Part shown: positions 39,708 to 52,155 of the stretch, one piece after another
How the letters are laid out: every line of letters begins with the position of its first letter
How positions within the stretch are numbered: position 1 is the stretch's first letter
From: Rhodovulum marinum
GTDB lineage: Bacteria > Pseudomonadota > Alphaproteobacteria > Rhodobacterales > Rhodobacteraceae
DNA: 64,000 bases
NCBI RefSeq assembly: GCF_004343075.1
Contig: NZ_SLXP01000006.1
Span: 124,001-188,000 of the forward strand
Reading direction: 5' to 3'
The notes under the pieces: generated by a model
Seen by the model: only the letters and a program-made list of their open reading frames with translations
Database searches by the model: none
Told to the model about the DNA's origin: nothing
Translations under genes and position numbers: made by a program

Positions 39708-45144
<5,437 letters not shown>

Positions 45145-45172
45145 GGCCGTTCGTGCCCGAACGTTCGCGAAT

Positions 45173-45187
45173 GTTCTTAAAAAGTTC
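45173..45187 (+). promoter_or_regulatory. LexA (SOS) box 1
   Basis: GTTCTTAAAAAGTTC is a perfect GTTC-N7-GTTC, the LexA operator of alphaproteobacteria. It lies 65 bases before the start of the 40-residue peptide gene and 28 bases after recG. Confidence 0.8.
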
Positions 45188-45209
45188 TTTACAATTGTCT
45201 CGAAAAGGA

Positions 45210-45224
45210 GAACAAAGAAGGAAC
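45210..45224 (-). promoter_or_regulatory. LexA (SOS) box 2
   Basis: GAACAAAGAAGGAAC is GAAC-N7-GAAC, the complement of the same operator. It is 22 bases from box 1, about two helical turns in spacing between starts (37 bases, roughly 3.5 turns), and 27 bases before the peptide start. Two boxes before one small gene are unlikely by chance. Confidence 0.75.
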
Positions 45225-45251
45225 ATTCCGACGCAGCAGGAGGTTGCCCCC

Positions 45252-45374
45252 ATGATAAGCGAACTGACCGACGCCCTGTCCCGCACCCGTGCCACGCTCT
45301 GGCAGGACGCACTGGGGGCCGCTGCGCTGATGGTCACGCTGTTCGCGGGGCTGCACCTGCCCGCGCTGTTCTAA
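45252..45374 (+). CDS. LexA-controlled 40-residue membrane peptide
   Basis: ATG at 45252 is preceded at ideal spacing by a perfect AGGAGG (45238-45243). The peptide starts MISELTDALSRTRATLWQD, a likely amphipathic helix, then has one hydrophobic helix (about 20-38, LGAAALMVTLFAGLHL) and ends PALF. Two LexA operators lie just upstream and a strong terminator follows, so this is a self-standing SOS transcription unit. Caulobacter SidA, a 29-residue inner-membrane peptide under LexA, blocks division through FtsW; a similar role is an inference from size, membrane helix and regulation, not from sequence identity. I do not recognise a named family. Confidence 0.75.
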   Translation: MISELTDALSRTRATLWQDALGAAALMVTLFAGLHLPALF

Positions 45375-45464
45375 GGTTTCACTGCCCGCTGTCTGTGCCT
45401 TCGCCCCGCCCCAAGGGGGTAAGGAACCTGCCTCTTCCTGTCCTGATGCACGGACGCATACCTG

Positions 45465-45500
45465 CCGCCGCCTCCGACCACGGAGCGCGGCGGTTTTTTT
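45465..45500 (+). terminator. Strong rho-independent terminator
   Basis: CCGCCGCCTCCG (45465-45476) pairs with CGGAG-C-GCGGCGG (45481-45493, one bulged C), with a four-base loop, followed by seven T (45494-45500). It ends the SOS peptide unit. Confidence 0.9.
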
Positions 45501-45520
45501 GTCTGAAACGAAAAACGTCG

Positions 45521-45973
45521 TCAGGCGCAGGCCGCGGCCTCGGCGGCATCGAACGCCTCCAGCGTCGCCTCCAGCGCAAGCAGGATCGAGGCATGGCGGT
45601 TCTTGTAGTCGCGCGCGGGGGCCAACACTTCCAGCCCGTCAAAGGGCGGTGCAGGTGGCGGCCCGTTTTCCTTGAGCATGGCGCGCAACTGATCGCGCGC
45701 GGCTTCGACTTCGGCGCGTGTGCAGCCAATGACATTCGCACCGACAACTGCGGCGGCCGCCTGCCCCAAGGCGCAGGCCTTGACGTCCTGCCCGAACCGG
45801 GTGATCCGTCCGTCCTCGACATCCAGGTCCACGCTGACTGTCGACCCGCAGAGAGGCGAGCGTTTGCGCGCGCTGGCCATTGGCGTGTCGAGCCGTTCGA
45901 GATGCGGAATATCGGCCGCCAGCGCCAGGATGCGCTGGGAATACAGCTTGATCAGGTCGGTCTCGGCGGTCAT
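45521..45973 (-). CDS. IscU/SufU-like iron-sulfur cluster scaffold protein
   Basis: A 150-residue NifU-N-type protein expected to build or hold Fe-S clusters. The conserved cysteines appear in RSPLCGSTVSVDLDVEDG (about residue 42), VKACALGQAAAAVVG (about residue 69) and VIGCTRAEVEAARDQL (about residue 84). In canonical IscU the third cysteine is much further along, so this is the divergent type often found beside hisI in this family. ATG at 45973. It is divergent from hisI, with 69 bp between them. Whether it is a real scaffold or a zinc-type SufU relative is open. Confidence 0.8.
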   Translation of the reverse strand: MTAETDLIKLYSQRILALAADIPHLERLDTPMASARKRSPLCGSTVSVDLDVEDGRITRFGQDVKACALGQAAAAVVGANVIGCTRAEVEAARDQLRAMLKENGPPPAPPFDGLEVLAPARDYKNRHASILLALEATLEAFDAAEAAACA

Positions 45974-49347: not shown

Positions 49348-52119
49348 TTACTCGCCCGACGGTTCGCCCGCGCCCTGTGCCTCGTCCTCGCCCTGATCGG
49401 CGATCCAGGCGACCGAGACCACTTCCTCGCCCTTCGCGGTGTTGAACACCCGCACCCCGCCCGCGCTGCGCGAGCGGAACGAGATATCCTCGACCGGGCA
49501 GCGGATCGACTGGCCGGTCGAGGTGACCAGCATGATCTGGTCGTCGATCTCGACCGGGAAACACGCCACCAGTGGCCCGCCCCGCAGGCCCTTGTCGATC
49601 GCCTGCACACCCTGGCCGCCACGCCCGCGCACCGGATAATCGTGGCTGGACGACAATTTGCCAGTGCCGCGAGTGGTGATCGTCAGGATCAGGTCCTCAG
49701 CCGCCGACATCTCGGCATAGCGCTCGGGCGACAGCTGGCCGCCGGCAATCGCCTCGTCCTCGTCGTCGGGCTCTTCCTCGTCGGTCAGCCCGGCCATCAG
49801 GCGCCTTTGTTTCAGATAGGCGGTGCGTTCCTCGGAACTGGCCTCGAAATGGCGGATCACCGACATCGACACCACGCGGTCGCCCTCGGCTAGGCGGATG
49901 CCGCGCACGCCCACGGAACTGCGGCTGTTGAACACGCGTACATCGGTGGTGGGGAAACGGATCGCCCGGCCAAGCGCCGTCACCAGCATCACGTCCTCGT
50001 CCTCGGAACAGATGCGTGCGTTGATCAGCCTTGTATCCGCGTTTTCGTCCTCGAATTTCATCGCGATCTTGCCGTTGCGCATCACGTTGGTGAAATCCGA
50101 CAACCGGTTGCGCCGCACGCTGCCCGCAGACGTGGCGAACACGATCTGCAATTCGTCCCAATCCTTTTCGGGGCGGTCCACGGGCATGATCGCAGCGATC
50201 GAGACGCCGGTCGCAATGGGCAGGATGTTGACGATGGCCTTGCCCTTCGAGGTGCGCCCCCCCTGCGGCAGGCGCCAGCATTTCAGCTTGTAGACCATCC
50301 CGTCGGTCGTAAAGAACAGCAAGGGCGTGTGGGTGTTGGCCACGAACAGCGTGGTGACCACGTCCTCTTCCTTGGTTTGCATCCCCGACAGGCCCTTGCC
50401 GCCGCGCCGCTGGGCGCGGAATTCGACCAGGGGCGTGCGCTTGATATAGCCGGACTGGGTGATCGTCACGACCATGTCCTCGCGCTCGATCAGGTCCTCG
50501 TCCTCCATGTCGCCGGACCAGTCGGCGATCTCGGTACGGCGGGGCACGGCGAACTGGTCGCGGACCTCTTTCAGCTCGTTCGCGATGATCTCCATGATCC
50601 GGTCGCGCGACCGAAGAATATCGAGGTAATCCTTGATCTTGGCGGCCAGGTCTTCAAGTTCGTCGGTAACTTCCTTTACGCCCAGCTGGGTCAGGCGTTG
50701 CAGGCGCAGATCGAGGATTGCACGGGCCTGCGTTTCGGACAGGTTATAGGTGCCGTCCTCGTTCATCTTGTGGGTCGGGTCGTCGATCAGGCGGATGTAA
50801 TCGGCGATGTCGGCGGCGGGCCAGCGCCGGCCCATCAGTTTTTCCCGTGCCTCGGCGGCATCGGCAGAGGCGCGGATGGTGGCGACCACCTCGTCCACGT
50901 TCGACACGGCCACGGCCAGACCGCACAGGATATGGCTGCGTTCGCGCGCCTTGCGCAGTTCGAACGCCGTGCGACGCGCGACAACCTCCTCACGGAAGTC
51001 TATGAAAGCGGTAAGGAATTTCCGCAGCGTCAGGGTTTCCGGCCGACCGCCATTCAGCGCCAGCATGTTGCACCCGAACGAGGTCTGCATCGGCGTAAAG
51101 CGGAACAACTGGTTCAGCACGACATCGGGTGTGGCGTCGCGTTTCAGTTCCACCACCACGCGCACGCCGACGCGGTCGGATTCGTCCTGGACGTGAGCGA
51201 TGCCTTCGATCCGCTTGTCTCGCGCGGCCTCGGCGATCTTTTCGATCATCGTGGCCTTGTTCACCTGGTAAGGGATCTCGTCGATGACGATGGCATACCG
51301 ATCCTTGCGGATTTCCTCGATCCGGGTCTTTGCGCGGATGATGACCGAACCGCGCCCTTCCAGATAGGCCTTGCGCGCGCCGGACCGGCCCAGGATCAGC
51401 CCGCCCGTCGGGAAATCGGGGGCGGGGATGTATTCCATCAGCTGTTCGACGGAAAGGTCCGGGTCTTCGATCAGCGCCAGCGTGGCGTCGACGACTTCGC
51501 CCAGGTTGTGGGGCGGGATGTTTGTGGCCATGCCGACCGCGATGCCGCCCGCACCGTTGACCAGCATGTTCGGGAATCGCGCGGGCAGGACGGTGGGTTC
51601 CAGGTCCTTGCCGTCGTAATTGTCCTGAAAATCAACGGTATCCTTGTCGATATCGGCCAGAAGTGCGGCGGCGGGCTTGTCCATGCGCACTTCGGTATAG
51701 CGCATGGCGGCGGGGTTATCGCCGTCCATCGAGCCGAAATTCCCCTGACCGTCCAGCAAGGGCAGGGACATCGAGAAATCCTGCGCCATGCGCACCAGGG
51801 CGTCGTAGATCGCGGAATCGCCGTGCGGGTGGTATTTCCCCATCACGTCGCCTACCGGGCGGGCGGATTTCCGATAGGGCTTGTCGTGGGTATTGCCGGT
51901 TTCGTGCATCGCGTAGAGGATGCGACGGTGCACGGGTTTCAGCCCGTCGCGCAGATCGGGGATCGCGCGCGAGACGATGACGCTCATCGCGTAATCGAGA
52001 TAGGAGGTCTGCATCTCCTGCTCGATGGCGATGGTCGGCCCGTCATAGGCGGGCCGCTCGGGCGCGCCGCTGGGGCCATTTTCGTCTTTGTTCTCAGGGG
52101 GTTCCGGCGTTTCGCTCAC
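49348..52119 (-). CDS. gyrA: DNA gyrase subunit A
   Basis: Cleavage-rejoining subunit of gyrase. The 923-residue protein has the winged-helix start [26 protein letters not shown] (quoted in part: [20 protein letters not shown]), the catalytic tyrosine region [12 protein letters not shown], and the quinolone region [17 protein letters not shown] with the Ser and Asp typical of susceptible strains. The GyrA box QRRGGKG marks the C-terminal wrapping domain. The C-terminal part carries an acidic insert ([12 protein letters not shown]). The GTG at 52119 (VSETPEP) is preferred to a TTG at 52149, because AAAGGCCGGG lies between them. Confidence 0.96.
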
Positions 52120-52155
52120 GTTGATGCCCGGCCTTTCGCGCCTGCTCAATATCTA

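Follow-up and report, generated by a model that had tools for sequence, protein, structure and literature searches.

What does the short, apparently LexA-controlled unit behind recG in Rhodovulum marinum produce, and what could its product do when DNA is damaged? The first-pass annotation of the 64-kb stretch of Rhodovulum marinum DNA analysed here (the window) had described a peptide gene with one predicted helix under a LexA-type operator. This description stands as far as it goes, but it is incomplete, since the transcript also contains a conserved structured RNA: in most loci a conserved fold, not remarked in that annotation, lies between the stop codon and the terminator.

Layout of the unit

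The unit follows recG (43054–45144, plus strand), whose product has RecG domains in Pfam. GTTC-N7-GTTC is present at 45173–45187 on the plus strand and, reading GAAC-N7-GAAC on that strand, at 45210–45224 on the minus strand, where the first-pass annotation had placed two perfect LexA operators; a motif scan finds the second box, for which the family consensus is GAGAACAAAggggCAAC. The overlapping GTTC-N6-GTTC that the annotation had also noticed lies at 45163–45176, with conservation of its first GTTC across 88 loci. By column conservation over these 88 loci, the LexA-type operator spans 45163–45187 (plus strand) and comprises three direct-repeat GTTC half-sites at 45163, 45173 and 45184, with spacings of 10 and 11. 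Touching it is TTTACA (45188–45193, plus strand), a candidate −35 element. A Shine-Dalgarno sequence read directly from the DNA, AGGAGG (45238–45243, plus strand), and a 40-codon gene (45252–45374, plus strand; ATG at 45252, stop codon at 45372–45374) follow, both as first proposed, and conservation, selection and predicted fold all bear on the gene. Its translation, MISELTDALSRTRATLWQDALGAAALMVTLFAGLHLPALF, combines a cationic amphipathic N-terminal half with a predicted C-terminal membrane helix that ends in LHLPALF.

Downstream, folding and the model R1 described below place a structured C-rich RNA at 45375–45464 (plus strand), in Rhodovulum marinum a short version. Its last helix is a Rho-independent terminator at 45465–45500 (plus strand), recognised from sequence and folding as a CCGCCGC-CTCCG hairpin with a run of seven T residues. 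The strong terminator already reported there is thus real, its stem having a one-base bulge, even though a simple terminator scan gave no terminator at the unit.

Operator, promoter and LexA

Within the window GTTC-N7-GTTC is seen three times against 1.8 expected, and 27 of 100 shuffles reach three. The motif is therefore at chance level in 64 kb, and the case for the operator rests on comparison between genomes. The third copy (52090–52104), itself at chance level, has a GC-rich spacer and lies inside a minus-strand reading frame (49348–52149) near its start.

Over 88 loci the family promoter consensus is tttGTTCnCaaATGTTCTcAaAAAGTTCTTTACa-N-aAtaTGAGAACAAAggggCAACaaa, in which three GTTC half-sites of the same orientation, spaced by 10 and 11 bp, are followed by the touching TTTACA and, further down, by inverted half-sites. 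The last inverted half-site is usually CAAC in the family, and GAAC in some genomes including that of Rhodovulum marinum. TTTAC is near-invariant over the same loci, suggesting that TTTACA could be the −35 element. A scan for σ70-type promoters on both strands of 44900–45900 returned none, missing the unit's own proposed promoter likewise. The palindrome TTCGCGAA, which had been thought to widen the operator, is not conserved over the 88 loci, and we regard it as incidental.

Rhodovulum marinum encodes a LexA (TIGR00498, over the cut-off), and GTTC-N7-GTTC precedes both its lexA (box at C2:67813–67827, lexA match from C2:67861) and its recA (box at C6:34757–34771, recA match from C6:34867). 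The LexA motif reported for Caulobacter is also GTTCN7GTTC (PMC12700426). We infer that LexA very probably binds the operator of the unit. A study of LexA sites in Dinoroseobacter shibae names the lexA, recA, dprA, pde2, flagellar, pilus and GTA promoters; by word count, its main text contains neither 'recG' nor 'small protein' (PMC6473078).

A peptide conserved across the Rhodobacteraceae

Using the single 40-residue sequence as query, 226 of 295 family genomes gave a match at E<=0.1. A profile of 29 sequences matched 241 of 290 Rhodobacteraceae genera at E<=1e-4, so the reading frame is conserved in relatives. In a sample drawn from the order it matched 137 of 149 genomes, all of them in this family. 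Among 385 alphaproteobacterial genomes sampled across the class the profile gave ten matches. Five were family members with a strong match; the five outside the family were weak (E 0.0025–0.008), lay within frames of 290–504 aa and were taken as chance. A wider distribution of the peptide is supported neither by these weak matches nor by the scarcity of boxes behind recG in outside genomes (see below); within their reach the searches support a peptide restricted to the Rhodobacteraceae. No family in Pfam or NCBIfam matches it at E<=10. A search of 50,697 phage records gave no match, and among 72,556 plasmid records there was a single weak one (E 0.08); a mobile or phage toxin was rejected on this evidence.

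The pattern of substitution is that of a protein-coding gene. In 10 of 11 close pairs (the ten with a defined value; 9 of the 11 pairs are within a genus) dN/dS is 0 to 0.26, and more than half of the changes in the 11 pairs fall at third codon positions. Among the 77 members of 40 aa, the mean differences at codon positions 1, 2 and 3 are 16.5, 10.6 and 23.2 of 40 (2926 pairs). Comparison of sequences thus confirms a genuine, family-conserved peptide gene under purifying selection; two outcomes that the first-pass annotation had named as refuting, the lack of homologues with a conserved frame and the lack of a selection pattern, were not observed. Peptide length varies between 38 and 42 residues across 91 loci; D19, G22 and L34 are invariant in 68 sequences and P37 is found in 99% of them. 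The peptide alignment A1 comprised the first 30 loci minus L024.

AlphaFold2 predicts a single helix over residues 2–39 (mean pLDDT 85.8). The N-terminal half is amphipathic (moment 1.39) with a mean net charge of +1.2, and the last part averages 0.1 charged residues. On this prediction the peptide is almost certain to insert into the inner membrane, and its N-terminus would be cytoplasmic with the C-terminus at the periplasmic face.

The unit holds a fixed place behind recG

In the 91 loci found by way of the peptide, recG lies upstream in 90 and GTTC-N7-GTTC within 250 nt upstream in all 91. Homologues thus carry the anticipated LexA boxes, and they nearly always follow recG, though not strictly: the distance is about 620 nt for one unit and about 960 nt for one diverged copy. 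The former (L047, 623 nt from recG) has an extra GTTC-N7-GTTC box. The 91 loci include three duplicates (L041, L098, L103), which were removed to give the 88 loci used for terminator and word counts.

We also searched in the reverse direction, scanning a 22-base promoter pattern over the genome contigs of 84,980 species, and at least 118 stretches match. Nearly all are Rhodobacteraceae by title (Ruegeria, Roseovarius, Sulfitobacter, Paracoccus, Rhodobacter and others); among the matches listed are some metagenome bins named only to order, class or phylum and one Muribaculaceae bin. Of the 118 promoter matches listed, 116 have recG in front (78/80 and 38/38) and 115 have the peptide (78/80 and 37/38). 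The Muribaculaceae bin has neither, and the remaining failures among the matches listed (L202, L212, L246) are loci cut by an edge. This set and the peptide-found one have at least seven records in common (L003/L141, L009/L224, L012/L215, L014/L193, L021/L185, L042/L191, L054/L158) and so are not fully independent.

Of 87 alphaproteobacterial genomes from outside the Rhodobacteraceae, one has a box just 3' of recG, and no hydrophobic small reading frame lies beside it. This box came from a set of 27 loci; a further 60 fragments, two of them ending early at a contig end, had none.

A structured RNA follows the reading frame

A terminator was found in 84 of the 88 loci, its T-run 114–270 nt past the stop codon. 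Between stop codon and terminator C-rich words recur, namely UUUCUGCCUGCG after the stop, CUGUCCC, CUGCCUGUCCC and CUGCCUC. Counted over the 84 terminator-bearing loci, the four others being left out, CTGCCTG is found 126 times (present in 74 loci) against 4.3 in dinucleotide shuffles, and CTGTCC 118 times (present in 72) against 9.6. In predicted folds of the 84 loci the C residues of these motifs have an unpaired probability of 0.82, compared to 0.42 for other C; the promoter-found set gives 0.79 and 0.44 (66 of 77 loci used). A test for a long-range helix gave a weak contrast, with 65 of 66 real loci against 40 of 66 mononucleotide-shuffled ones, and carries no weight in what follows.

Folding four RNAs over the span between stop codon and T-run gave z-scores of −3.2 to −3.7. 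Common to the three full-length ones are a closing helix that starts in the UGCG of the first word, inner hairpins with the C-rich words in their loops, and the terminator; in the short RNA of Rhodovulum marinum the closing helix is different and smaller. The latter has a z-score of −3.68 when folded from stop to T-run, and −1.43 when reading frame and RNA are folded together, 16 of 200 shuffles being as good. Without guidance, RNAalifold recovered the terminator alone from a 59-sequence MAFFT alignment (A2, 59 of the 84 terminator-bearing loci), the inner helices being of variable length. Single-sequence folds supplied the remaining helices, which were then set out in a hand-written structure on 14 sequences (A3, picked by eye from the 84 for like architecture). 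There 90.5% of cells are paired and 16 pairs have changed on both sides, against 6.9 in shuffles.

The model R1 built from these 14 sequences matches 91 of 93 loci at E<=0.01, including 77 of 79 outside the building set (the 93 being 84 of the 91 peptide-found loci together with L087–L095), and 109 of the 118 promoter matches listed (74/80 and 35/38). In the Rhodovulum marinum genome its only match with E<0.01 is at 45420–45500 (E 2.8e-10). In 50 non-building loci 91.3% of cells are paired, compared to 33–49% when the structure is slid, and 386 cells carry changes on both sides against 102 ± 9 in shuffles, in a test whose selection of loci and R1-fitted alignment favour pairing. These 50 were drawn from 74 R1-matched loci; of those set aside, 15 were the weakest matches, 7 stood close to the building sequences, 1 came from a duplicate genome and 1 was truncated at an edge.

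No Rfam family matches at its gathering score in the window region or in eight family loci; the Rhodovulum marinum RNA is touched by two matches that fall far short of the threshold (E 0.43 and 5.3). A survey of 104 structured RNAs gives SAM/SAH for Rhodobacterales, and recG occurs in its reference list only (PMC2864571). The 3' region is a conserved structured RNA with compensatory changes and its own terminator. Since its loops are constant on freely varying helices, a binding partner for the RNA is favoured, and the RNA may possibly act in trans. A role in hiding the Shine-Dalgarno sequence was rejected, since the predicted pairing of this region with the 3' RNA is only 0.06. Most of the region is nevertheless predicted to pair elsewhere in the transcript (unpaired probability 0.30).

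Diverged genomes and the core of the unit

Twenty-seven family genomes without a profile match were examined closely (20 from the 290-genus sample and 7 from the order-wide sample). The promoter pattern is present in nine, all with recG upstream and, judged by eye, a diverged hydrophobic peptide of 31–47 aa; in one of them (L091) about 960 nt separate the end of recG from the promoter. Two of the three g24 genomes among these nine (L091 and L093), as well as Paracoccus saliphilus (L181), have a 31-aa peptide without the amphipathic N-terminal half. This peptide, of nearly the size of SidA, would be a naturally occurring minimal form.

In 15 of the other 18 genomes recG was located, the remaining three having only a match to a different helicase. 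Eleven of the 15 carry LexA-type boxes and a short hydrophobic reading frame behind recG; four (L267, L269, L270, L271) have neither a box nor a recognisable peptide there. That 4 of the 27 genomes lack both indicates that the gene is dispensable. R1 matched with E<0.01 in L261, L264, L265 and L268, the terminator alone was seen in L263, and the R1 search gave nothing significant in L262, L266, L272, L273, L274 and L275. Operator and peptide thus persist where the RNA goes undetected, suggesting that the peptide is the core product and the RNA a second layer. In the strongly AT-rich L274 and L275 a LexA-type box and a hydrophobic reading frame are kept behind recG with sequence identity nearly gone.

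Proposed function and rival explanations

We propose that the Rhodobacteraceae have in this unit a stand-alone SOS gene, with LexA sitting on the GTTC half-sites over the promoter. Upon DNA damage, RecA-triggered cleavage of LexA would release one short transcript. This would be translated into a peptide of about 40 aa with one inner-membrane helix, the cationic amphipathic half lying on the cytoplasmic face and the C-terminus reaching the periplasm, and would end in a folded RNA that presents C-rich words in single-stranded loops ahead of the intrinsic terminator. The peptide would serve as the SOS checkpoint effector of the family, delaying septation through contact with a late divisome membrane protein; the RNA would be an added layer, either an antisense or sponge RNA or a stabiliser of the message. 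By analogy with SidA in Caulobacter, the peptide quite possibly restrains septation. The fuller proposal, a bifunctional core-genome SOS gene whose LexA-released transcript yields both a division-stopping peptide and a multi-loop RNA with repeated CUGCCUG/CUGUCCC seeds, is speculative and taken as a whole unlikely. Were it true, the C-rich RNA would reprogram translation, or titrate a protein or sRNA, during DNA repair, and the unit would supply the Rhodobacteraceae with their missing SOS checkpoint as well as being a LexA-controlled dual-function RNA.

The peptide could instead be an SOS membrane effector with a target other than division, slowing growth by altering membrane potential or a transporter or respiratory complex in the manner of TisB or DinQ. 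Its size, single helix, cationic amphipathic N-terminal half and LexA-type operator would all fit. Against this, it is conserved in the core genome at one fixed site, and the absence of phage matches and the one weak plasmid match are unlike mobile toxin systems; the invariant D19 and G22 and near-invariant P37 would point to a specific protein contact and make pore formation less suggested. We regard such a non-division target as rather unlikely. That the whole arrangement is a chance reading frame with two GTTC repeats in the 3' region of recG might be argued from GTTC-N7-GTTC, which on its own is at chance level in the window, but family conservation, selection, the recG context and the near-absence of the box behind recG outside the family (1 of 87 genomes) refute this reading, and we exclude it with a negligible residue of doubt.

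The RNA raises two further alternatives. It might itself be what the unit chiefly makes, an sRNA or sponge induced in the SOS response and carrying the same seed loop several times over, with the reading frame as an accessory, as the excess of CTGCCTG over shuffles, the unpaired state of the motif C residues and the strong compensatory change would suggest; yet the peptide is under purifying selection, and operator and short hydrophobic reading frame are kept in the six genomes without a detected RNA (L262, L266, L272–L275), so that we find it improbable. Alternatively, the 3' RNA might be a mere stability or termination element of the peptide mRNA, with no targets, which is compatible with an effector of division or of another process. 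The little predicted pairing with the Shine-Dalgarno region and the location of the sole E<0.01 match of R1 in the Rhodovulum marinum genome, downstream of the peptide reading frame, agree with such an element, but a mere stabiliser would not need the sequence of unpaired words to be kept while helices vary freely, and we hold this role to be somewhat doubtful.

Relation to known systems

SidA of Caulobacter crescentus, an inhibitor directed at FtsW/FtsN, is reported to be a LexA-controlled inner-membrane peptide of 29 aa that acts on FtsW, and its removal to abolish the filamentation of a lexA mutant (PMC4211646, PMC12700426). The Rhodobacteraceae peptide resembles it in belonging to the same bacterial class, in its GTTC-N7-GTTC control and in being a tiny inner-membrane peptide (here with a predicted single span and about 30–40 aa), and differs in its fixed recG context, the amphipathic N-terminal half of most members and the conserved 3' RNA. 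As for homology, the 385 alphaproteobacterial genomes gave no convincing match to the peptide outside the Rhodobacteraceae, a comparison in which the sequence of SidA itself was not included. Such short peptides diverge fast.

YneA of B. subtilis and SosA of S. aureus are likewise SOS-induced and are described as division inhibitors, a role that is only proposed for the Rhodobacteraceae peptide; they come from another phylum, and the Rhodobacteraceae peptide has no Pfam domain. Both span the membrane and are much longer. In E. coli, TisB is a LexA-controlled single-span toxic peptide. DinQ of the same species is similar to the present peptide in its LexA control and short membrane helix (PMC3567139). 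In contrast to the mobile modules of the TisB and DinQ type, the Rhodobacteraceae gene is conserved on the chromosome at one site; no antisense antitoxin was seen in the promoter scan of 44900–45900, which overlooked the promoter of the unit itself. SgrS/SgrT and RNAIII/hld are dual-function RNAs in which one transcript combines a small reading frame with a structured RNA bearing C-rich seeds. The Rhodobacteraceae unit differs in having the reading frame ahead of the RNA, a LexA-type operator and no Rfam match that reaches the gathering score.

In the titles and opening lines of abstracts covered by our literature search, which left subscription journals mostly aside, we recognised no SOS checkpoint effector for the Rhodobacteraceae and no description of the peptide gene or the RNA, of which an earlier account may exist in those journals. 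The unit is a strong candidate for the SOS checkpoint effector of a large, ecologically important family, most of whose sampled genera keep it at the one locus. Should the RNA prove functional, a membrane effector and a regulatory RNA would be coupled in one LexA-released transcript.

Viral and neighbouring sequences

The only viral match to the 22-base operator/promoter pattern is on an IMG/VR contig (IMGVR_UViG_3300028384_000507; L371, 6148–6169). It lies upstream of a 317-aa reading frame, with neither recG nor the peptide, and is possibly a phage copy of a host SOS promoter, or chance.

In the window, ligA (40505–43057) encodes a LigA of 850 aa, in which no Pfam match falls between the helix-hairpin-helix (to residue 577) and BRCT (from 777) domains. 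The stretch 42125–42874 has a GC content of 0.46–0.56 against 0.61–0.69 around it, and from its composition looks like an in-frame foreign insertion.
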